DNA of 31,939 bases from positions 1-31,939 of the IMG/VR virus record IMGVR_UViG_3300037961_001168. The stretch is one strand, 5' to 3'. Numbering within the stretch: position 1 is the first letter of the stretch; each line of letters opens with the position of its first letter. Below the pieces are notes generated by a model, which saw nothing but the letters and a program-made list of their open reading frames with translations, searched no databases and had not been told where the DNA came from. A program made the translations under genes and the position numbers. The stretch comes from a virus. This document shows, piece by piece, positions 2,719 through 29,867 of the stretch.

Positions 2719-3635
2719 TTTGCCTCCCTGTTAGCTATTTTTTGTTTTTCTTTAGCAACGGATTTTAACCATACGTCATCTGCCATGCCATGCGGTTTAA
2801 TCCCACGGAGCGTTTCGACTTCACTTTTTGTGAAAGATACGCCGTTCTTTTTGCCTTGTGTTTTTTGCCGACTTCCTACGGAAGCAGAGGCGACTCTTTG
2901 CACAGCGGGTCCGCCCTCACTTTGTCCAGCATTATCGGATTGTAAACCCGGATAAACTTTATAAACTCTTGAATTTAACTCATTATAATACTCTTCTGAG
3001 TCTGGTTCATAGCCTTCTTGAACCAAATTTACATGAGTAAAATACGCATATTGTGTTGGTTCAGCATCTTGACCATACCATTGATTTTGTTTTTGCCAAC
3101 TCAAAGCCTTTTCTGATGGCGGTTCTGGTTGAGCTTGTTGCGGTTGTTGCGGTTGTTGTTGCTGATAAGGAACATATTGCGACTGTTGTGCTGTTTGTTC
3201 CTGTTTTTGTTTTGCAACTCTAATTTTTTCTTTTTGTATAGAAACCTCAGATTTTAAACTGTCAGCCTTTGACATAAGATCTGCGTCGCCAGCAGAGTGA
3301 GCTCTTTTGTAGAGATCATTTGCCTCTCTTTCTTTAGCCTCAACTGCCTCTTCTTCTTTTTGCAGTATAGTTTGTTGTTGTTGCATCGCATGTTGATAGT
3401 AATTTTGAGCCTCTACTTCTTTTTGTTGTAAAGCAGCTTCTAATTTTGCAGCTCTTTCTTCTGTTGCACGATTACGGGCGTTTAGTTTATTAATACGCTT
3501 AGATACACTTTTGGTGTAATTTTCTAACTCGTCTTCACTTGAAGCATCGGACGACGCTTCGTTTTCAGTCACTTCTACCTCAATTTCATCAACCTCTGGT
3601 TGCTGAACTTCTTTTACTTCGTTTTCTGTTGTCAT
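2715..3635 (-). CDS. Capsid scaffolding protein
   Basis: 306 residues with the design of a scaffold: a very acidic N-terminus (residues 1-45), a long coiled coil (about 45-150), a Gln/Pro-rich linker (about 150-180, including a QQQQPQQPQQ tract), and a C-terminal part with WQKQNQWYGQDAEPTQYAYF. The W..Q.QW.G.D motif followed by a YEPDSEEYYNELNSRV-type segment is typical of scaffold proteins of marine podovirus-like phages. It would guide assembly of the capsid protein around the portal and leave before DNA fills the head. The genes on both sides overlap it by four bases. Confidence 0.8.
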   Translation of the reverse strand: MTTENEVKEVQQPEVDEIEVEVTENEASSDASSEDELENYTKSVSKRINKLNARNRATEERAAKLEAALQQKEVEAQNYYQHAMQQQQTILQKEEEAVEAKEREANDLYKRAHSAGDADLMSKADSLKSEVSIQKEKIRVAKQKQEQTAQQSQYVPYQQQQPQQPQQAQPEPPSEKALSWQKQNQWYGQDAEPTQYAYFTHVNLVQEGYEPDSEEYYNELNSRVYKVYPGLQSDNAGQSEGGPAVQRVASASVGSRQKTQGKKNGVSFTKSEVETLRGIKPHGMADDVWLKSVAKEKQKIANREAK

Positions 3636-4075
3636 AAGCTCACTATGTCATCTGGATTGAGAATGGTGGCTATTACTTCATCATCATTGATGATTCTAAC
3701 CTCCGCACCATCTTCAAGTTTAAATCTTGAACCGGAGTAACGTCCAATTAAAACCCATTGTTTTTCTTCACACCAAGGTTTATCTCCAAATCTAGCCTTA
3801 TCGTTATAGCATTGTGGTCCTTTTTTGACAACATAAGCTACTATACTTGCTAGAGCCTCACGATCTTTTGTTTCTTTTGTAAGTATAATACCGCCTTCTG
3901 TTTTTGCTTTACCAGCATAGGGCAGCACTAACATTCTCCATCCTGTTGGTTGTGGCATCCGTTCTAATATTGAAGCGTCCAACTTTTCTGGATTTAAAAC
4001 CACTTCTTCGGGATCTACATAGGCCTCTGCCACTTTTTTTGCCATTATGTTGTTTTCTACTGCTTCTGAACTCAT
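3632..4075 (-). CDS. GroES-like co-chaperonin
   Basis: 147 residues. From residue about 44 the protein follows the GroES/Cpn10 fold: GWRMLVLPYAGKAKTEGGII, a mobile-loop-like GGIILT, a middle section with KKGPQCYND, then WVLIGRYSGSRFKLEDGAEV and a C-terminal DDEVIATI. The 43-residue N-terminal extension is not part of GroES. It probably caps the host GroEL chamber during folding of the capsid protein, as T4 gp31 does. Its place between portal and scaffold supports this. Start ATG at 4075 overlaps the stop of the preceding gene (ATGA). Confidence 0.85.
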   Translation of the reverse strand: MSSEAVENNIMAKKVAEAYVDPEEVVLNPEKLDASILERMPQPTGWRMLVLPYAGKAKTEGGIILTKETKDREALASIVAYVVKKGPQCYNDKARFGDKPWCEEKQWVLIGRYSGSRFKLEDGAEVRIINDDEVIATILNPDDIVSL

Positions 4076-4254: not shown

Positions 4255-4557
4255 TTACGATTTTTTCTTTGGTCTGCCTCTTTTAGCTGGAGCTTTTTTT
4301 GTTGTTTTTTTAGCAACTGTTTTCTTTTTAGCTGGAGTTTTTTTAACAACTGGCTTTTCTTCTACAACAACTTCCTTTTTTACAGGTAAGCCTTGTTCAA
4401 TTTGTGCCATTTTGTTAGCTATTCTTTTAAGATTTGCCTGGTGCTTTTTTTCTTCTGCTTCTTGCGCAGCTTTTAAGTCCTCGGCTTCTTTAATTCTTTC
4501 AGCTTTTTTTTCAGCTTTAAGTTTTTTAATCGCTTCTAATTTATATGATGTTGTCAT
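4255..4557 (-). CDS. Lysine-rich histone H1-like protein with AT-hook
   Basis: 100 residues in two parts. Residues 8-55 are a charged helix rich in Lys, Ala and Glu, likely a coiled coil. Residues 72-100 are a Lys/Ala/Pro/Thr tail like the C-terminal tails of histone H1, ending in KRGRPKKK (92-99), which contains the RGRP core of an AT-hook that binds the minor groove of AT-rich DNA. It overlaps the portal gene by four bases. Known relatives of such tails bind and condense DNA; its location in the head operon suggests it acts in packaged or replicating phage DNA. This function is inferred from composition. Confidence 0.7.
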   Translation of the reverse strand: MTTSYKLEAIKKLKAEKKAERIKEAEDLKAAQEAEEKKHQANLKRIANKMAQIEQGLPVKKEVVVEEKPVVKKTPAKKKTVAKKTTKKAPAKRGRPKKKS

Positions 4558-12063: not shown

Positions 12064-13178
12064 TAGGATTCTTGCCTTATTGTTATGGTTGAGTTGCCTG
12101 TGCCATTGATTTGCACAACCTTAGATACGCCGTCTTGTATAAAAATTACTGTGTAAGATTGATCTCCATTTACAAGAATTTGGGCACTTTGATTTACTGT
12201 ACGAATTAGTTTTACTTGGCTGCCTTGAATTAGTGTAGTTATTTGTGTATCTCTGTCTTGACCAACAGCTGTGCCTGCTATATTAATACCAGCAACAAAA
12301 TTAGTAAGCTGGTCTTCTTCTTCTTTAGTATCTAACTCGTCAATAACGTCTAACAAATCTTCAAGAAAATTTACATCTAATAAATCAATATCTAGTTCTG
12401 TAAAATCAAAGTCTGGATCTTCTTCCAATAAATCTTCTGCTAATAAATCTACGTCTAAATCTGTAAAATCTAGGTAATCAGCGGTTTGTGTTTGCTGTAC
12501 TTCTTCCTCTGATATTTCTTGTTTTGGCGGTGAAACAATAAGTAAGTTATCAATAAACTCTAAAGATATATCTAAGGTTACAGGTTTAGATGGTGTGCTT
12601 TCAAACACAGTTGTAGTGGTAGCTTGGTAGGGTTTGTTCAATACAACCTGTCCTGCTGCGGTTGTTACTAATATTTCGCCACTAGCATCGCCAAACTGAT
12701 TAGGCAAAAGAATTATTAAACTTTCGCCAAGCTCGTTTACTGTTGCTGTAAAGTCCGTGCCTCTTACAAAAATTTGTGAAGTCGGCGTGGATAAAGTTAT
12801 ATTTTTTTTGTTTAGCTTATTTACATTGCCAGATATAAAACGAATAGTACCGCTAGCAAACTGCAAAGCCATTTCTGATTTATCTGGGTTTGGATCAAAA
12901 ACATACTTATCAATTAGTAGTTGTGAATGTTCGGTTAGCTTTACTGTGCTGTCATCAAGAAACGTAATCGCAACACGACCAGCTCGTGTTTGCACCTCAT
13001 CATTTGAGGCTATGTCAAAATTTAATTCTGCTGGATAAGTTTCATCCCTAACTACCTGGCCATAGCCTTTTAATTCGGTAATATCACCGATACTAGCAAC
13101 TTGTGCTTGTACCGCCGTCGCTTTGTACGATGCAGATATTAGAATTAGAAGTGTTAGATATGATTTTAAGCCAGTCAC
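12063..13178 (-). CDS. Secreted FecR-domain protein
   Basis: 371 residues from a GTG start; the signal peptide (residues 1-25, LTLLILISASYKATAVQA) decides the start because no later start keeps it. A FecR domain spans about 57-190 (DEVQTRAGRVAITFLDDSTV; TPTSQIFVRGTDFTATV). A strongly acidic Asp/Leu repeat segment follows at 235-285 (DLDVDLLAEDLLEEDPDFDF-like units). The last 40 residues include VQINGTGNSTITIRQES, which resembles one curlin repeat. The first 86 bases overlap the end of the curlin-like gene. FecR domains act as periplasmic signal or binding modules; here it likely works with the CHASE2 cyclase downstream. No kinase or sigma factor gene is near. Confidence 0.85.
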   Translation of the reverse strand: MTGLKSYLTLLILISASYKATAVQAQVASIGDITELKGYGQVVRDETYPAELNFDIASNDEVQTRAGRVAITFLDDSTVKLTEHSQLLIDKYVFDPNPDKSEMALQFASGTIRFISGNVNKLNKKNITLSTPTSQIFVRGTDFTATVNELGESLIILLPNQFGDASGEILVTTAAGQVVLNKPYQATTTTVFESTPSKPVTLDISLEFIDNLLIVSPPKQEISEEEVQQTQTADYLDFTDLDVDLLAEDLLEEDPDFDFTELDIDLLDVNFLEDLLDVIDELDTKEEEDQLTNFVAGINIAGTAVGQDRDTQITTLIQGSQVKLIRTVNQSAQILVNGDQSYTVIFIQDGVSKVVQINGTGNSTITIRQES

Positions 13179-13809
13179 GAGCTAAAGTAGATGTTTGATC
13201 TATGTTAAAAGTATTACCACTGCCATCTAGGTCAAGATAAAAATATCCAGCGTCGCTTGAGCTTGCTCCATAGCCACTACCAGTAAAATTTATTGTATTG
13301 GTTGATCCGTTTATGTCCATGTAATTGGTTGCATATTCGTAATCAATGTCAAAATCAAGATCGTTGCTGTCGCCAGTAATAATCCAATCCAAGTCCAAAT
13401 AACTTGCATCGTCATCTTCACCTATTTTTATGTCAGCAGTGTTGCTTGAGCCTGTAACATCGATGTTTAAATTTACATAGTCTGTTGAACTAAGACCTGT
13501 TGAGTTCATTAGTAAGTCCCAAACATTGCTGTCGCCATCAAACTCAAAGAAACCTGTAAAGTTACCGCCGTCTATAGCATCAGATCTAAAAATATTACTA
13601 GATCCTATTTGATTGATGTCGAGCACCATACTTGCTCCGTCCAAATCGAGAGCAGTCATTGTGCCTGAAACAGCAGATGTACCACCAATAAGGTTAGTAG
13701 ATCCTAGCTGTTCGAGATCAATAGAAGCATTAGAGCCGCTTTGATCCACAAAAATTTCATTATCAGCTAATAAGTTAGCTGACAACAAAAGAATAAATAA
13801 ATATCTCAT
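13093..13809 (-). CDS. Secreted curlin-like repeat protein (CsgA/CsgB type)
   Basis: 238 residues from MRYLFILLLSANLLADNEIF, whose ATG overlaps the csgG-like stop (TAATG) with GGAG upstream. After a signal peptide (about 1-16) come eight or nine repeats of roughly 20-28 residues. The first is classical curlin: DQSGSNASIDLEQLGSTN (Q-x-G-x-x-N...Q-x-G-x-x-N). Later ones follow hxhxhxG(S/D)SNxhxh, for example INQIGSSNIF, IDVTGSSNTADI, LDGSGNTFNIDQ. Asp replaces many Gln/Asn of bacterial curlin, giving a very acidic protein. Two Cys lie in the last 15 residues. It follows csgG, so it is the likely exported, possibly amyloid-forming substrate. Confidence 0.82.
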   Translation of the reverse strand: MRYLFILLLSANLLADNEIFVDQSGSNASIDLEQLGSTNLIGGTSAVSGTMTALDLDGASMVLDINQIGSSNIFRSDAIDGGNFTGFFEFDGDSNVWDLLMNSTGLSSTDYVNLNIDVTGSSNTADIKIGEDDDASYLDLDWIITGDSNDLDFDIDYEYATNYMDINGSTNTINFTGSGYGASSSDAGYFYLDLDGSGNTFNIDQTSTLARDWLKIISNTSNSNICIVQSDGGTSTSC

Positions 13810-14654
13810 TAGTTCTCCGTAAAAGTCCAAAAACCTAACTCACTACCTTGGTTTATAATATCAACGATACCAATTTCTATGGCGCTTTGCAAAGCGATGG
13901 ACTTACTTTCGTTCATAGCATTTCCAGACTCATACTCAACTAATTCAAGACCATCGGCTATATATCTAAAATAATCTTTAGATATTCCTACTGATAAGAT
14001 TGTTTTAGTTGTTAAGTTTTCAAGCAATATTTCACCTGTGCTTACCGACACCATTCGTATAGAAACCAATACAGTATCTTCTCGATATTGCTTGCTTGCG
14101 CCTATGCCTAGGTATCTTGCGCCGATACCACCAGTTAAAAGATTGGTATTGTAATCGACAATCCCACCCTCAATAATAAGTCCAGCAAATAACAAGGGAA
14201 GCTGTTTATTATTTTCATCAAATTTTTCACGAGTAGATCTAATTATCTGCCTTTCTTTTGTTATGTGATCTATACCACCACGCTCAACTACACGAAAGAA
14301 CCCAGATTGTTTTAGTGCTCTAATTAAGTATGTTTCTGGTGCTTGAGTCATTGCAGTAGAAAAATTAGCATAGCCATCTACACTTTTTCTTTGCCCGGTA
14401 TAGTCGCTAAACTTGTAAACAGCTACCACAGGTTTTTGTTTTGGAGCAGGAACCTCTAGTATTTCTTTTGTAATCGGACGATTTATGAAGGCTGATTTAG
14501 AAAAACACTTGCGCTCACCAATAATAGTAACTAGGTCTTTATAGTCTTGGTCTGGGTTTTTAAAGCAGGGTGAAACATACTTTTGATGCGTCGTGCAACT
14601 AACCACCAAAGCCAAAGTCGCCAATAGGGATAGTGATTTCGGTAGTGCTTTCAT
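13809..14654 (-). CDS. csgG: CsgG-like outer-membrane curli export lipoprotein
   Basis: 281 residues. A lipoprotein signal (LATLALVVSC, lipid on C20) precedes a CsgG domain: VVAVYKFSDYTGQ, ANFSTAMTQAPETYLIRALK, VVERGGIDHITKERQIIRST, GGIGARYLGIGASKQYREDT and a C-terminal helix region. N97 and F98 match the Asn-Phe pair in the channel constriction of E. coli CsgG. CsgG forms a nonameric outer-membrane channel that exports curlin subunits. The protein carries about 50 residues between lipid anchor and core that E. coli lacks. The gene overlaps csgF by 56 bases and the curlin gene by one, implying co-expression. From memory, CsgG-like genes occur in some marine phages. Confidence 0.93.
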   Translation of the reverse strand: MKALPKSLSLLATLALVVSCTTHQKYVSPCFKNPDQDYKDLVTIIGERKCFSKSAFINRPITKEILEVPAPKQKPVVAVYKFSDYTGQRKSVDGYANFSTAMTQAPETYLIRALKQSGFFRVVERGGIDHITKERQIIRSTREKFDENNKQLPLLFAGLIIEGGIVDYNTNLLTGGIGARYLGIGASKQYREDTVLVSIRMVSVSTGEILLENLTTKTILSVGISKDYFRYIADGLELVEYESGNAMNESKSIALQSAIEIGIVDIINQGSELGFWTFTEN

Positions 14655-21538: not shown

Positions 21539-21711
21539 ACAAAGCTAAATACTTTAACCAAGTCATGCCAAAGCTAAAGGCTAAATATAAATTTACAGAT
21601 AATGATTCTATAATTGATATTATGGAAAACATTATTACTGATCCTAAAGATCTACAACAATTCAAGCTGGCGTTTAAATATCCCAACGGCTTGCCTAAGT
21701 GGTTGCATTGA
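21535..21711 (+). CDS. Unknown 58-residue protein of plus-strand island
   Basis: 58 residues: MNKAKYFNQVMPKLKAKYKF, then TDNDSIIDIMENIITDPKDL and a tail FKYPNGLPKWLH. It overlaps the preceding gene by four bases and the methyltransferase start by one (TGATG), so all are translated as a chain. No ribosome-binding site other than the purine-rich GGGGAAAAAAA before its ATG. I do not recognise it. Confidence 0.6.
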   Translation: MNKAKYFNQVMPKLKAKYKFTDNDSIIDIMENIITDPKDLQQFKLAFKYPNGLPKWLH

Positions 21712-23492
21712 TGAAGGTACTAAGTTTATTTGACGGAATGAGCTGTGGGCAAATTGCTCTCAAGCAGCTCGGCATTAAAGTAGATACTTATTACTCATCC
21801 GAGATTGATAAGTATGCTATGCAAATCACACAAAAGAATTTTCCAAACACTATACAAGTCGGCGATATTTGTAATTTAGATCCTAAAGATTTTATGGATG
21901 TGGATTTGATACAGGCTGGCTCACCTTGTCAAGGATTTTCTTTTGCTGGCAAGCAGTTGGCGTTTGATGATCCTAGGTCTGCGTTGTTCTTTGAGTTTAT
22001 ACGCTTGCTCAAAGCCATCAAGCCAAAGTATTTTTTGCTTGAAAATGTCAGAATGAAAAAAGAGTTTTTAGAGGTAATTACTGAGCAAGTATCGAGCTGT
22101 TATACAGCAGATGATGTTGCACCAGAGTTCAAAGACATGTTTGGCAATGTGAAGTTTGAGCCGCATTTTATTAATGCTTCTTTAGTTAGCGCTCAATCAA
22201 GGCAAAGATACTACTGGACTAATATACCTGGAGTCAAACAGCCAGAGGATAGAGGTATAGTATTGAGAGATATATTGGAAACAGAGCCAGAAAGTATTAC
22301 TAAAATGTCAGAGAAGTTTGTCAAAAGAAATGGCGATAAAAATTGCATGATTGACCAAAACAAAGAAAAGGCTAGTAATTTATCTGCTATGGAGTATGTC
22401 AAGAATGGTAGACAGGGCGATTATTTGGCGTGCGATCAAAGTGGCAAACCAACTAATAAGCCAATCAAAGTAGGCATGAATGTAGAAGAGGTAAAGGTTA
22501 GAAAGCATGAAGTCAACATATCTGGATTGCAACATCTTTTACGAGAGATGAAGAAAGAGTCTAAGAAAACAAACAAACAGATAGCAAAAGAAACTGATCT
22601 TCCTGTAACTAAGGTGGAGCATTGGTTTAGAACCGACAAGAGTTTTGCGATACCTAGCGAAGATATATGGTTGAAACTCAAAGAAGTTTTAGGTATTAAG
22701 ACAGAAGTGTTCGATGCGTCGATTATGGAGTTTGAATACAAGGATGGTGTATTTGAAAGCACACAAAGGGTTTACAGCGATCAAGGTAAATCACCTACAC
22801 TTACTGCATCAAACAAAGAGCAGATGATAGAAACTAAGCCAAAACAAGTAGGTGTTGCAGTAGATGTTAATGGATATGATTGTCTTAAACGAGTCTATAG
22901 TCCAGATGGTAAGTCGCCTACAGTAACAACCTGTCAAGGTGGTAATACAGAGCCAAAGGTAGTTACAGGTGCGGCATTTCGTGGTAGAGCTTATGATAAA
23001 GATGGTAAACGCATGGATAAAGATGGTAAATCAGTAGCAAATCAAACCAAACAAATGTTAGAGCTGCGTAAGGATAATAAATCAAATGCAATAACAACAG
23101 TTGGTAAAGATAGTGTGGTTGTTGAAAAGTTGCCAGACAAATCTAAGGTATTAAAGGCTAATTATTACAAATCATCAAAAGCCAACTTTGAAAATGATAC
23201 AAGCAAGGGTGGTAAGTTTTCAGCTACAGGTGTGCCATTAGAATCAAAGGTAAGAGAGAAGTCTAAAACAGTTAGATCTGGTGGCAGAGGATCTTATGAC
23301 AGGCATGAATGGGATAGTGTTGATGAACTACACTGGCGTAAGCTAACACCCTTAGAATGTGAACGATTGCAGACAGTCCCAGATAATTATACTGAGGGTG
23401 TGTCTAACACACAGCGCTACCGCATGCTCGGAAATGGCTGGTGCGTAGCAGTAATCGAACACATATATCAAAACATGGAACACGATGAGTAA
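21711..23492 (+). CDS. DNA (cytosine-5) methyltransferase
   Basis: 593 residues from MKVLSLFDGMSCGQIALKQL; the ATG overlaps the previous stop (TGATG). C5-methyltransferase motifs are present in order: FDGMSCG (SAM binding, 7-13), PCQ with catalytic C73 (SPCQGFSFAG), ENV (111-113), QSRQR (162-166), and the C-terminal LTPLECERLQTVPDNY ... RYRMLGNGWCV. The target-recognition region (about 190-540) is large and includes an HTH-like insert at about 264-335 (TNKQIAKETDLPVTKVEHWF) and two GKSPT(L/V)T units. No restriction enzyme gene is adjacent, so it is an orphan: protection from host restriction or gene control are the usual roles. Confidence 0.93.
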   Translation: MKVLSLFDGMSCGQIALKQLGIKVDTYYSSEIDKYAMQITQKNFPNTIQVGDICNLDPKDFMDVDLIQAGSPCQGFSFAGKQLAFDDPRSALFFEFIRLLKAIKPKYFLLENVRMKKEFLEVITEQVSSCYTADDVAPEFKDMFGNVKFEPHFINASLVSAQSRQRYYWTNIPGVKQPEDRGIVLRDILETEPESITKMSEKFVKRNGDKNCMIDQNKEKASNLSAMEYVKNGRQGDYLACDQSGKPTNKPIKVGMNVEEVKVRKHEVNISGLQHLLREMKKESKKTNKQIAKETDLPVTKVEHWFRTDKSFAIPSEDIWLKLKEVLGIKTEVFDASIMEFEYKDGVFESTQRVYSDQGKSPTLTASNKEQMIETKPKQVGVAVDVNGYDCLKRVYSPDGKSPTVTTCQGGNTEPKVVTGAAFRGRAYDKDGKRMDKDGKSVANQTKQMLELRKDNKSNAITTVGKDSVVVEKLPDKSKVLKANYYKSSKANFENDTSKGGKFSATGVPLESKVREKSKTVRSGGRGSYDRHEWDSVDELHWRKLTPLECERLQTVPDNYTEGVSNTQRYRMLGNGWCVAVIEHIYQNMEHDE

Positions 23493-24031: not shown

Positions 24032-24283
24032 ATGCCACACATACCGCCGATACCTTTTCATAATAAGGAAAGTAAAAAAAATTTTGACTTTGCAGAAAAC
24101 ATTTACTTAGCCATGTTTTACTTTATGCCTACCGACACAGTTGCGGCTTTAGAAAAACATTATTTAGTCAATAAAAAAGCTGTAGCAACTATGCAGCGCA
24201 TGAGTCCCAAGCATTACGATAAATTAATCGAAGATTTTAAGACAAGAAAAAAAGAAATCCTAGAGAAAGATACTAAGGATTAA
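24032..24283 (+). CDS. Unknown helical protein, last of the plus-strand island
   Basis: 83 residues from MPHIPPIPFHNKESKKNFDF; an in-frame TTG four codons earlier is possible. The centre (AENIYLAMFYFMPTDTVAAL, EKHYLVNKKAVATMQRMSPK) is helical and could be a small DNA-binding fold (a V.ALEKHYLVNKKAV.T pattern like a two-helix unit), but I cannot name it. Its 3' end overlaps that of the converging gene at 24273 by 11 bases, so no separate terminator fits here. Confidence 0.6.
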   Translation: MPHIPPIPFHNKESKKNFDFAENIYLAMFYFMPTDTVAALEKHYLVNKKAVATMQRMSPKHYDKLIEDFKTRKKEILEKDTKD

Positions 24284-26636
24284 ATATATCGATATTGTCG
24301 ATTGAAAAAGGTTTTAGGACAGCTCCACCAATCGCAAAGTTAGAAAAGCCTTCCTCAAGTATTTTCTTTTTCATTTCTGGCGTGATGTAGATGATGTTGG
24401 CGTCAAATCTTTCTCCTCCAGTTCCATAAGGATCTAATCTTACATCCCCTGGTTTGGGTTTATAAATATCGTCTAAATCTAATTTCCCTTTCTCAAACTT
24501 ACCGCCGTATTTATTTGCTAGCTTTTTCATGGCCGAGGGTATCTTCTGATCGTATAGAGTTTCATAAAACTTGCTATACTGATCGGTATATCTCGCTTTG
24601 ATTGGAGCGGAGCTTGATACAGAAATAGCATCGGAACCCTCTTCAATCGCGTCCATGAGTAGTTGTTTCAGTGACATGGCATACCAATCGTCTTTGAAAG
24701 GGTAGTTAGGAACTCTTGCTTCTTTAGCAGATGCAATTTTGAAAGCTGGTTTCAAGGCGTCATCAAAAGGTGTAAATGCAGCTATATCTTCTAAAGTTGC
24801 ACCTTTGCCCACCCCTAATTCGTTCAAACTATTTATAGCATCAAACATAATTCTTCTAGCATCGTTCATTCTAACAAGAGAATATCTGTCTTGAGGATTT
24901 CTAGCATAAAGTTCCTCTGCATCTGCTATTTGTCTTTTTATTTGATTTATGTCTACAGATCCAATAGTAACTCTATCTCCCATGGCATCTTCGAGCTTTG
25001 GCAATATCCTATTTTTAAGTTTTGTAAACTCAGTACTAATACCAGAGGACATTTTTCCTAACTGTATTGCATCTTCTGCATCGAGCTCTGGTGTAGAGTA
25101 ACCATCTCTCGAACCTTTAGTATGCAAATCCGATTGTAGCTCGTCGACATGCAAAGTTTGTTTGCCGTCGGCTAGTTTTCTGTTTCGAATCAGAGCGCTA
25201 GATATTTGACTGAGCTCGTCGAAATGATTTTGCACGCCATGTTCTACTGGTGCGTTTTCCCAAGTAAATACAACTTCGCGGTAATTATCTCCGCCAGGTA
25301 ATGTTTTATCTACATCACCTTTGTAACGTGTTTCCGTGGATAAATAATCTGTTTCGCCTGGTAGTCGTAGCGGATCGCCGCCTTCTTCTAAGGCGTTTCG
25401 TAATTGTATTTGTGCCTCGGTACGGCTGTAAGCAACATTATCTGGATCAGTCACTCTTTTACCGCCTACAAAAAGTTGGTAACCAGCTAAATCGTTGCCA
25501 AAAGCAAAAGTATTATCTGCTATGTCAACATCGTAGACTTGGTTGGTAGATTTTGGTACGACTAATTCGTATGGATCGTTAAAATATTGGGCTTTTGCAA
25601 AGTTGTCTATCAAATCATCTAGGCTTTCGTTTCTAGCTGATAAATAATTATCAACATCAGAAATGGTCATGGCTCCAGCCTGTGGATTGCTTTGGTTGAA
25701 AAAGTCTATGACTTCTTGCGTTGTGTAATTATCACCTTGTTCTATGTCATAACGTGTATCTTCTATTATATTTTGATAATTTTTATAAGTAGGATCTAGC
25801 GGATCAAATTCTGGAGTAGAAATATCAAAGTCTATCTCCGGTGCATCTGCATTGTGGAAATAAGTGTTTTTTCCAACCACGACTTTATTATCGCTTACGC
25901 CCTCGACTACTTCGTTGATAGTTGCTTTGGGATTAGTGGCAACAAACTCATCTATACCTAGATATTCTAACTCTTTGGGTTTGACGCCTTTGTTGGCGTT
26001 TGCATTAAGCCATTCAGTAATTTGTTTACCTTTTAAGTTTGGTGGTGCACTTTTAAGTAAGGCCTCCAAAGATGGCGATACAAAGCCGTATTCATCTTTG
26101 GCAAATTTGTCTAAATTTTCTTTGAGCGCAGCTTTGGTTGCATCTGTACCTTTGAGTGCCTCAATGCCTGTGGAAGTTTTCTTTGCTTTTGCAATCATGC
26201 CTGGAACCGCACTTAAAGCTCCAACACCTTTTAAGACAGAACCAACAGTTGCTCCAAGTAGAGGTCCGACAAAGGGTGCTGCATAAGTTGCATCTCCCAA
26301 AACACCTAGTCCTTGTAGTGGAGCTATCACATATCTGTCGATACCTCCTGCGGCTATGTTTTCACTAATGCTGGGCATAGGATCGCCAGCAAAAGCATCT
26401 TCTAGCGCTACATCTGGTCCGGGGAACTCTGGAAAATTACCAGTTGCATCTGCTATGCCTGCGCCCGGTGCAAAAATAGCTCCTATATAAGCGGTCTGTG
26501 CTGGTGTTAGTTGTGCTCGGTCTTCTGAATTGTAATAAATACCTGTTCCTGGCAGTGGACTGCCGATAGATGAAAAAGCAGACAGGTCGCTCTGTTGTAT
26601 TCGCTCTTGCAATGCTTTTCTTTCATCTTCGGTCAT
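24273..26636 (-). CDS. Large polyvalent/internal virion-type protein
   Basis: 787 residues. The N-terminal part has hydrophobic Gly/Ala-rich stretches (about 85-145, for example FVGPLLGATVGSVLKGVGAL) that could contact membrane. From about residue 440 on comes a segment seen in very large phage polyvalent or internal virion proteins: YREVVFTWENAPVEHGVQNH, ADGKQTLHVDELQSDLHTKG, then YPFKDDWYAMSLKQLLMDAI, EGSDAISVSS and ITPEMKKKILEEG. I know this as a recurrent associated domain of unclear function; an enzymatic role such as processing or ADP-ribosyl chemistry is unproven. It could be a protein ejected with the DNA. It follows the oxygenase gene by 25 bases. Confidence 0.65.
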   Translation of the reverse strand: MTEDERKALQERIQQSDLSAFSSIGSPLPGTGIYYNSEDRAQLTPAQTAYIGAIFAPGAGIADATGNFPEFPGPDVALEDAFAGDPMPSISENIAAGGIDRYVIAPLQGLGVLGDATYAAPFVGPLLGATVGSVLKGVGALSAVPGMIAKAKKTSTGIEALKGTDATKAALKENLDKFAKDEYGFVSPSLEALLKSAPPNLKGKQITEWLNANANKGVKPKELEYLGIDEFVATNPKATINEVVEGVSDNKVVVGKNTYFHNADAPEIDFDISTPEFDPLDPTYKNYQNIIEDTRYDIEQGDNYTTQEVIDFFNQSNPQAGAMTISDVDNYLSARNESLDDLIDNFAKAQYFNDPYELVVPKSTNQVYDVDIADNTFAFGNDLAGYQLFVGGKRVTDPDNVAYSRTEAQIQLRNALEEGGDPLRLPGETDYLSTETRYKGDVDKTLPGGDNYREVVFTWENAPVEHGVQNHFDELSQISSALIRNRKLADGKQTLHVDELQSDLHTKGSRDGYSTPELDAEDAIQLGKMSSGISTEFTKLKNRILPKLEDAMGDRVTIGSVDINQIKRQIADAEELYARNPQDRYSLVRMNDARRIMFDAINSLNELGVGKGATLEDIAAFTPFDDALKPAFKIASAKEARVPNYPFKDDWYAMSLKQLLMDAIEEGSDAISVSSSAPIKARYTDQYSKFYETLYDQKIPSAMKKLANKYGGKFEKGKLDLDDIYKPKPGDVRLDPYGTGGERFDANIIYITPEMKKKILEEGFSNFAIGGAVLKPFSIDNIDIFNP

Positions 26637-26661: not shown

Positions 26662-27222
26662 TTATCTAAAAGGCGGACCATTGAACCAAGCAACAACGAC
26701 ATATCTATCGCCTTTGGTCACAGGTTTGACTTTATGTGACAAAAAAGAGCTAAATGCTACCACTTCACCCATTTTTGGGCGCGTACAGCTCTCATTTTCG
26801 CTGGAACGGAAGCAAATTTCGCCGCCTTCATAGTCTTCGTTGAGCAAAAGGCTCATACTGATCTTGCGTGTAGCAGCTGTACCCTCTGGTCCTATGTCCA
26901 AATGATACTCATAGCCGTTAGATGGCGCTTTATAGTGAATTATCTGCGCTTTTTCTATGCCAGTAATGTCATATTTGAAGTATTTATTGGCTGAAAAGGC
27001 AATTTTGTTCAAAATTTGATACAAACGCGTCTGTTTTTCGTCAATATAGTAAATAGTAGCGTCCCGAACAGTTGTTTGCTCGATTTCATCGCCTTTATCG
27101 TGCACTTTGGCCACAATACCTTCGGCTTCAACCACATAATCTAAGAACAGTTCTACATCATCTTGGCTGACAGACAGACCGGTTACGCCGTGATTAGGTA
27201 GAATATCAGTTTTCGTCTGCAT
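26662..27222 (-). CDS. 2OG-Fe(II) dioxygenase (PKHD-type)
   Basis: 186 residues with the prolyl 4-hydroxylase-like fold. Iron ligands are H107 and D109 (YEYHLDIGPEG) and H163 (LSHKVKPV); R173 (DRYVVVAW) would bind 2-oxoglutarate. SLLLNEDYEGGEICF is the usual strand before the second half of the domain, and the family's final strand is present, so the enzyme looks complete. The substrate may be a protein or nucleic acid. Such oxygenases are frequent in marine phages. The gene overlaps the SET-domain gene by 17 bases, suggesting paired modification activity. Confidence 0.88.
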   Translation of the reverse strand: MQTKTDILPNHGVTGLSVSQDDVELFLDYVVEAEGIVAKVHDKGDEIEQTTVRDATIYYIDEKQTRLYQILNKIAFSANKYFKYDITGIEKAQIIHYKAPSNGYEYHLDIGPEGTAATRKISMSLLLNEDYEGGEICFRSSENESCTRPKMGEVVAFSSFLSHKVKPVTKGDRYVVVAWFNGPPFR

Positions 27223-27532
27223 GATAATTTAAAGTAAGCTCATCACCCTCGTTAATATGACTTATTGTATGTAAATGAAAAATCCTATAATCGTCCCAAT
27301 CCAAAAGTTCTATTAAGCAGCAATTTGGTGTTTCTGTATGATTTAAAAAACCACCTAAAGGCGTACGAACGTAGCCATTAATAATTGGTATTTTAATGTG
27401 AGTCATACCTAAATCTGTATCAGCTGGTATCTTTTCAGCTGCGAAGAGTCCCAAGCCTTCGATAACACTATTTTTAATCGTTAGATTGTCCGGCAATGGT
27501 TTGTAATAAAATTTGTTGAATTTATAGTTCAT
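27206..27532 (-). CDS. SET-domain protein (lysine methyltransferase-like)
   Basis: 108 residues, a compact SET domain. Seen: GLGLFAAEKIPADTDLG (26-42, the SAM-binding start), FLNHTETPNC (62-71, the NH-x-x-x-PN pattern that forms the pseudoknot), and EGDELTLNYH (95-104, with the catalytic-type Tyr 103). Length is near the minimum for a SET core, with no pre- or post-SET cysteines. It would methylate a lysine on a host or phage protein. Start overlaps the nuclease stop by four bases (ATGA). Small SET proteins are known in some large DNA viruses and phages; the target here is unknown. Confidence 0.75.
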   Translation of the reverse strand: MNYKFNKFYYKPLPDNLTIKNSVIEGLGLFAAEKIPADTDLGMTHIKIPIINGYVRTPLGGFLNHTETPNCCLIELLDWDDYRIFHLHTISHINEGDELTLNYHADEN

Positions 27533-27954
27533 GTTGTAACCACAAAATGTTTTTCATAGTTCTGCCAGTTGTTTTTCAATGTATCAAGCCAATCATCTAT
27601 CGCCATGACACAGATCTTGTCGTTTTCGTGCGGCCACTCCAGGTTAATCGCATACAGGGGTATGCAAACACGAATCGGTCTGCGGTTGAACTTAAATATC
27701 AGTACAGGAATCTTACCATTACTGGCACTGCAAACTTGATCCCACCAGGCGGACTTTAACCATTCGCCTTCTTTGTAGAATTTGCACTCAACCGCATGAA
27801 AGGGTATATCCAAATCGCATAGGTCTTTTTGTTGGTATTGGTCTAAGTTGCGTTTGGTTTGGAAATCTATGTCATTGTCAGCAAAAAAACCATTGAGGAT
27901 CTTCGCTATATCACGTTCAAATGTTGCGCCTTTATTTCTGGAGTTAATCGGCAT
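27529..27954 (-). CDS. PDDEXK nuclease, Holliday-junction resolvase-like
   Basis: 141 residues. NSRNKGATFERDIAKIL (E13 in the first helix) is the start typical of Hjc-like resolvases, followed by basic KRNLDQYQQKDL, then D47 and the strand HAVECKFYKEG with E56-x-K58: the PDDEXK catalytic set. A later WWDQVCSASNGKIPVLIFKF forms the usual helix and strand. It likely resolves recombination intermediates or trims DNA for packaging. First gene after a 371-bp control region. The start has only a weak GAGAAA site. Confidence 0.78.
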   Translation of the reverse strand: MPINSRNKGATFERDIAKILNGFFADNDIDFQTKRNLDQYQQKDLCDLDIPFHAVECKFYKEGEWLKSAWWDQVCSASNGKIPVLIFKFNRRPIRVCIPLYAINLEWPHENDKICVMAIDDWLDTLKNNWQNYEKHFVVTT

Positions 27955-28325: not shown

Positions 28326-28832
28326 CTATTTATCTTTTGCAGAATAGTTTGAGGTTTCAGCACCAAGCAACTGTCCTAATCTTTCTTTGATTTGCTCCCT
28401 GCTCATCTTCTCTAGGTTTGCATTGATGTTTATGTTCTGGGATCTATTGATTGATAAACCAGCGAGTTGATTTAGCTCTTTGATAGCACTGACCGCTGCA
28501 TTGAACTGCCCATTTTCGTATGCACTTTCCATAACTTTCCACAACATTGTGCCAGTCTTTTGTGGAGTGATCGCATATTTTTCTGCGAGCTCATCTTGTT
28601 TAATTCGGATAGCTTTAACCACATTTGGATAATCTTTGCCGTTCAATAATTTATTCGCCGACTGACTTGGAAACTCATACCCAGCTTTTCTAGCTGCCTC
28701 CGTCATACCGCACGCACCTTCGGTGTAATGCCAAACAAAGCTGGCCTGCATTTCAGTTAAGCCGTGCTCCTCATCTTTATCAAATTGCAACGGCGCATCG
28801 GCGATTGGTTTCTTCTTAATCTTCTTTGGCAT
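28326..28832 (-). CDS. terS: Terminase small subunit
   Basis: 168 residues. LTEMQASFVWHYTEGACGMT, EAARKAGYEFPSQSANKLLN form the helix-turn-helix DNA-binding region of Terminase_2-type small subunits; the centre (ELAEKYAITPQKTGTMLWKV; NAAVSAIKELNQLAGL) is the oligomerisation helix, and the end binds the large subunit. It recognises the packaging site and starts DNA packaging. The basic N-terminus MPKKIKKKP is common. The large subunit gene lies about 20 kb away, so the packaging pair is split by the plus-strand island, tail and lysis genes. Confidence 0.85.
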   Translation of the reverse strand: MPKKIKKKPIADAPLQFDKDEEHGLTEMQASFVWHYTEGACGMTEAARKAGYEFPSQSANKLLNGKDYPNVVKAIRIKQDELAEKYAITPQKTGTMLWKVMESAYENGQFNAAVSAIKELNQLAGLSINRSQNININANLEKMSREQIKERLGQLLGAETSNYSAKDK

Positions 28833-29224: not shown

Positions 29225-29323
29225 CTAATCTTTATCAAATATCATATACAGCATGAACAAGAGTACGCTCGCAGCAACCATCCCAAACAGTGTACCTAAC
29301 ACTCCAAGCACTATGTCAATCAT
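29225..29323 (-). CDS. Possible 32-residue membrane peptide
   Basis: MIDIVLGVLGTLFGMVAASV followed by LLFMLYMIFDKD: one hydrophobic helix covering most of the peptide. The ATG lies inside the adenine methyltransferase end (8-base overlap, ATGATTGA), which is the coupling style used throughout this genome. Nothing else supports it; it could be chance, but single-helix microproteins are common in phages. Confidence 0.45.
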   Translation of the reverse strand: MIDIVLGVLGTLFGMVAASVLLFMLYMIFDKD

Positions 29324-29867
29324 CAATCACCTCATCTCCCCAAACATCCCAGCCGTTTGCTTTTTCTCTTGCAAATAATTCTATTCTTGGCAAATTGCCA
29401 CACAGTTCTACAATTTTATCTCTAACTACAACCGGTTTTTTTGAGTGTCTATCAATAGGCTCGTGTACTATTTGATGCACTGATTTTGATACTCTTTTTG
29501 GCTTACCCTTTGTGGCTAACAAACAAATTTCATTATTTGCTCTTGTCCAATAACCTAAACCCCAAAAGAAACTGTCTGCTTTTTTATTTTTTTTAACCCA
29601 ACTGAACCCACAAGTTTTATAAGTAAATCCCCACTCTTCTATTGTTTGCAATCCTTCTTTTAATAAAGGGTAAGTAACCCATAAAAACAGAACACAGTTA
29701 TCATCTGCAATATTTTGTATTGGAAGATTGTATATATCTTCTATTTTCATGCAGTCATAATGATTTTCAGCAGATTTTTTTTCTTTGCCTTTTTCAGAAT
29801 AAGTTTTGAATGTCCAAGGTGGATCAGCATATATGATATTGTATTTCTTATTTGGTAATTTAATCAT
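29316..29867 (-). CDS. DNA N6-adenine methyltransferase, MT-A70 family
   Basis: 183 residues. The catalytic DPPW (15-18, NIIYADPPWTF) is followed by CVLFLWVTYPLLKEGLQTIE, ATKGKPKRVSKSVHQIV and the C-terminal PRIELFAREKANGWDVWGDE, all hallmarks of MT-A70-type enzymes of phages. It transfers a methyl group from SAM to N6 of adenine in DNA (or possibly RNA). No restriction partner is adjacent. It overlaps the primase-helicase gene by eight bases, so it is made with replication proteins, which fits methylation of newly made phage DNA against host restriction. Confidence 0.9.
   Translation of the reverse strand: MIKLPNKKYNIIYADPPWTFKTYSEKGKEKKSAENHYDCMKIEDIYNLPIQNIADDNCVLFLWVTYPLLKEGLQTIEEWGFTYKTCGFSWVKKNKKADSFFWGLGYWTRANNEICLLATKGKPKRVSKSVHQIVHEPIDRHSKKPVVVRDKIVELCGNLPRIELFAREKANGWDVWGDEVIDD

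Follow-up and report, generated by a model that had tools for sequence, protein, structure and literature searches.

A free-standing minimal SET-domain gene, probably a mobile accessory gene of marine phages

Known SET proteins of viruses and chlamydiae

Viral SET enzymes are already known. The chlorella virus PBCV-1 encodes vSET (A612L), a minimal stand-alone SET protein (119 residues in the PDB) whose target is H3K27 of a host with histones (PMC7019647). The chlamydial protein cpnSET, which methylates the H1-like protein Hc1 (PMC3980110), likewise occurs outside eukaryotes, but it is cellular, and we liken it to the protein presented here by description and not by sequence. The residues expected in an active SET enzyme can be read from SET7/9, in which Asn296 and His297 are the Asn-His pair that contacts SAM and Tyr335 is the catalytic tyrosine (PMC1282579). 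Phage SET proteins have also been named in databases: BFVD holds SET-domain-named proteins of uncultured Caudovirales phages. A full-text literature search turned up no paper that describes the phage family studied here, and to our knowledge very little work has been done on phages that methylate lysines of proteins.

We examined a virus record of 31,939 bases, called the window in the following, to which all coordinates refer. The host of vSET has histones, whereas the virus of the window appears to be a phage. H3 would not be expected in the hosts of phages.

The SET gene and its neighbours

Reading along the minus strand, the terminase small subunit is followed by a PDDEXK nuclease, a SET-domain protein and a 2OG dioxygenase. 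The last three genes together span 26662-27954. The features discussed below are as follows.

28326-28832, minus strand: terminase small subunit, the upstream neighbour (PF03592, 8.1e-06)
27529-27954, minus strand: PDDEXK-family nuclease, 141 aa, resolvase-like
27206-27532, minus strand: SET-domain protein, 108 aa, probable protein-lysine methyltransferase
27207-27555, minus strand: 349-bp block containing the SET gene, with 8 bp at the same place in SET-less sister phages (DNA alignment A6 with L222, L224 and L231)
26662-27222, minus strand: 2OG-Fe(II) dioxygenase, 186 aa, PKHD/prolyl-hydroxylase-like
24273-26636, minus strand: 787-aa protein, the downstream neighbour (no Pfam match)
4255-4557, minus strand: histone-H1-like Lys-rich protein, 100 aa, 28% Lys, candidate substrate

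The 108-aa protein matches the Pfam SET family (PF00856) with 3.2e-08 and 34.4 bits, above the curated cut-off of 22.4. Residues 9-104 are covered by phrog_28741 (9.1e-23), a family annotated in PHROG as of unknown function. The AF2 model, predicted without SAM or substrate, has a mean pLDDT of 90.6 and a pTM of 0.81, and comparison with the PDB assigns it a SET fold: it aligns with the SET domain of MLL1 over 97 residues (Z 11.7, rmsd 2.8) and with vSET (3kma) over 89 residues (Z 11.0, rmsd 2.3). A sequence-profile match to vSET was found as well (E 9.9e-09), at an identity of 21%.

An alignment of 286 relatives showed that the GxG (G26/G28), NH (N64/H65) and catalytic tyrosine (Y103) motifs of SET methyltransferases are all present. 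The residues G28, R56, G60, N64, H65, N70 and E98 are invariant. Within the NH...PN motif, N64, H65 and N70 occur in 286/286 relatives and P69 in 218, while Y103 is found in each of the 284 relatives that align at that position. N64, H65 and Y103 correspond in their roles to Asn296, His297 and Tyr335 of SET7/9 (PMC1282579). The gene is under purifying selection, with dN/dS values of 0.04 and 0.07 against two close relatives, at a high dS. These motifs, the predicted fold and the selection suggest that the protein is probably a protein-lysine methyltransferase. The G26-x-G28 and N64-H65 motifs would hold SAM, with Y103 assisting the transfer of the methyl group to a lysine that comes in through a channel.

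The nuclease matches PDDEXK_15 (PF24608) with 2.2e-12 and 47.6 bits (cut-off 27) and phrog_244, a Holliday junction resolvase family, with 1e-17. Its D...ExK residues D47, E56 and K58 are invariant in nine sequences, and a PDB sequence search with it returned no match. The dioxygenase matches 2OG-FeII_Oxy_3 (PF13640) with 1.3e-14, above the curated cut-off. Its HxD...H iron triad (H107, D109 and H163) and the 2OG-binding R173 are invariant in 24 sequences, and its AF2 model has a pLDDT of 89.7. Profile matches in the PDB are prolyl 3-hydroxylase 1 and PKHD-type hydroxylases, with E-values from 6.4e-07 to 6.9e-06 for PiuC, Sbal_3634 and prolyl 3-hydroxylase 1. The NCBIfam cut-off for PKHD-type hydroxylases (YbiX/PiuC) is not reached (48.9 bits against 143). 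The PHROG matches are concordant with Pfam.

An earlier note made from the letters alone had named a Lys-methyltransferase-like SET domain, an Fe(II) dioxygenase and a PDDEXK nuclease in three overlapping genes, all of which its range of positions takes in. The SET assignment is borne out by the agreement of Pfam, PHROG and the predicted fold, and the other two by scores above the Pfam cut-offs and by the retained catalytic residues. The ORF coordinates confirm the overlaps, 4 bases between nuclease and SET and 17 bases between SET and 2OG. The conservation check that the note had proposed for the NH...PN motif and Y103 came out as given above, with only P69 variable.

Presence and absence at the nuclease/2OG junction

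The same note had taken the three genes to be coupled. Their packing is indeed tight, and in this phage they are probably translated together. The comparison with sister phages nevertheless speaks against a unit whose genes are kept together. In the junction alignment, a shared AACTAT is followed by 349 bases in the window and by 8 in L222, and identity resumes at ATATTC. Some of the SET-less sister phages encode 2OG proteins 98–99% identical to that of the window. We looked for SET along three SET-less sister contigs of 46, 51 and 57 kb, and it was absent throughout. Among 67 orthologous 2OG loci newly fetched via the 2OG protein, SET was absent from 50 and present in 16, with one locus cut. 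The nuclease gene runs straight into the 2OG gene in about 40 of those 50 SET-less loci, which thus represent the empty site. With these SET-less loci and contigs, and with SET found elsewhere without the two partners (see below), we rejected the three-gene functional unit.

In the close relatives of the window SET, the gene adjoins this 2OG gene wherever the contig reaches. These loci had been fetched through SET and are therefore uninformative on how often the 2OG gene occurs without it. SET and 2OG share 17 bases because the start codon of 2OG is provided by the last part of the SET gene. The amino-acid divergences of the two proteins are discordant (L010: SET 87%, 2OG 70% identity; L014: SET 74%, 2OG 87%) and point to separate histories. 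Presence and absence of SET at this junction are compatible with either gain or loss. The three genes would thus adjoin mostly because SET comes and goes at that spot, and overlapping phage genes need not be functional partners. The sister phages with and without SET provide a natural comparison of the two states.

The same junction is also occupied by PAPS-reductase-like genes (L228 3441-4205, L237 4082-4987, L019 3480-4364, also L021 and L026), so it may be a hot spot for cargo. The L041 homologue of this gene has a Pfam match below the cut-off.

Distribution of the SET gene and candidate substrates

In the wider phage group, SET is found in several other places, mostly without the 2OG and nuclease genes. 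It lies ahead of the small terminase gene (L283, L285), right after the homologue of the 787-aa gene (L041), within a Lys-rich gene cassette (L042, L043, L046 and L051 among others) and ahead of the large terminase gene (L044, L098; L044 also counts as a Lys-rich cassette). A tree of 32 non-redundant window-like SET proteins, in which only three branches are well supported, requires 11 changes among four location labels, of which the label "other" is a mixture. No Pfam family dominates among the recurrent neighbours of SET. We also looked for fusion proteins that could name a partner and found none among 293 SET ORFs; the longest has 168 aa, and the longer ones are apparently start extensions. 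A 971-aa SET protein listed in BFVD lies outside this set.

Scans of viral collections with SET gave at least 585 and at least 551 matching stretches, and the isolates Kolga EXVC016S, P-SSM7 and P-RSM6 encode proteins 45–47% identical to it that are annotated as hypothetical. For marine phages, the remark in the earlier note on the rarity of such domains therefore does not hold. The neighbours in the isolates differ from those in the window, with nrdB in P-SSM7 and gp25 in P-RSM6. Ocean phages, isolates included, thus carry a widespread and strictly conserved predicted enzyme of 100 residues, small enough to be tractable. A further 30 SET loci come from cellular genome assemblies, although a good part of them may lie on contigs of phages. 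Six SET genes in Porticoccaceae assemblies (L116, L121, L125, L126, L113, L137) have the neighbours 3-oxoacyl-ACP synthase (fabB-like), peroxiredoxin and SSB in common. These are of chromosomal type, which suggests a resident gene.

From the motifs, the predicted fold, the purifying selection, the empty site and the independent distribution, all computed here, we consider it probable that SET is a free-standing, mobile and selected accessory protein-lysine methyltransferase of minimal size (108 aa), and that each of the three genes has its own job. We infer that the protein is enzymatically active on a lysine target and benefits the phage. Its small gene would come and go where nuclease and 2OG meet as well as elsewhere in related phages, while the nuclease would act as a resolvase-like DNA enzyme and the 2OG protein would hydroxylate proteins, each most likely separately. 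It is very unlikely that the SET fold was retained in a protein that is no longer an enzyme and binds only SAM or another protein. The protein is very short, which would suit such a loss, but the invariant N64, H65 and Y103 and the low dN/dS (0.04, 0.07) speak for kept catalysis. As to the target, a host protein such as a ribosomal protein, a translation factor or RNA polymerase, modified in the phage's favour, is a tentative possibility. The gene is carried by widely differing phages at widely differing positions, as expected for a target common to their hosts, and histone H3 of the host is what vSET of PBCV-1 modifies (PMC7019647); against this, the computational analysis identified no host target. 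It lends support to none of the targets named in the note, which were RNA polymerase, the ribosome and DNA-binding proteins of the phage. Quite unlikely, in our view, is a coupled pair in which SET methylates a protein and the 2OG enzyme hydroxylates or demethylates it at the same site. The 17-base overlap is retained in much of the close clade, and in a T4-like second phage group a non-orthologous 2OG gene (2OG-FeII_Oxy_5) lies directly after SET (L114, L389-L402, L417-L421, L361), so some functional link is conceivable; the second-group arrangement is one of two remaining leads, both weak. However, SET is missing from 50 of the 67 newly fetched 2OG loci, nearly all distant SET loci are without an adjacent 2OG gene of the window's kind, and the two genes have diverged discordantly (L010, L014). 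In non-redundant loci, 2OG genes account for 5/190 genes adjacent to SET against 8/843 further away (Fisher p = 0.07, in a test run after the first cases had been seen).

The phage's own Lys-rich, histone-H1-like proteins are a further candidate target, and their methylation could adjust how DNA is packed, be it in the phage head or in the course of infection. We regard this as unlikely. In one sub-lineage the genes for small Lys-rich proteins form a cassette around SET, which is the other weak lead. Among distant viral loci, 15 of the 99 non-redundant ones have a Lys-rich gene directly beside SET, where a within-locus permutation that ignores shared ancestry leads one to expect 8.6 (p = 0.005). 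The methylation of the H1-like Hc1 by cpnSET is a precedent and no more (PMC3980110). Yet the excess comes from a single subfamily (10/27 window-like members against 5/72 others), whose phages carry Lys-rich cassette genes with or without SET. A reciprocal search with one Lys-rich family found SET nearby in just 2/80 loci. On these grounds we rejected Lys-rich neighbours as general partners of SET. The H1-like protein of the window, too, was discarded as a gene that tracks SET, as it occurs both in the SET-carrying G016 and in the SET-less G008, G009, G013 and G014. On a wider reading, the minimal SET enzymes of marine phages would place methyl groups on the phages' own Lys-rich histone-like proteins, as a phage counterpart of chromatin marking, and a protein hydroxylase would work beside them in some lineages. 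This is improbable to the same degree. The reading of SET as a mobile accessory methyltransferase with a job of its own is the one that we prefer.

Several other genes of the window deserve mention. The gene for the H1-like protein, which has a PAKK tail, overlaps the portal gene, and both adjoin a GroES-like co-chaperonin gene in the head module (Cpn10, 1.1e-06; 3632-4075, minus strand). The contig further encodes a C5-cytosine DNA methylase (21699-23492, plus strand, 5.9e-48) and an MT-A70-type methyltransferase (29316-29867, minus strand, 8.8e-30). Between 10312 and 15075 the minus strand carries, one after another, genes for CsgG (2.2e-47), CsgF (6.5e-13), a FecR-domain protein and a CHASE2-guanylate/adenylate cyclase, with a neighbouring 245-aa protein (13093-13830) that is repeat-rich in appearance and has no Pfam match. 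Such a curli-type secretion set is unusual in a phage contig.
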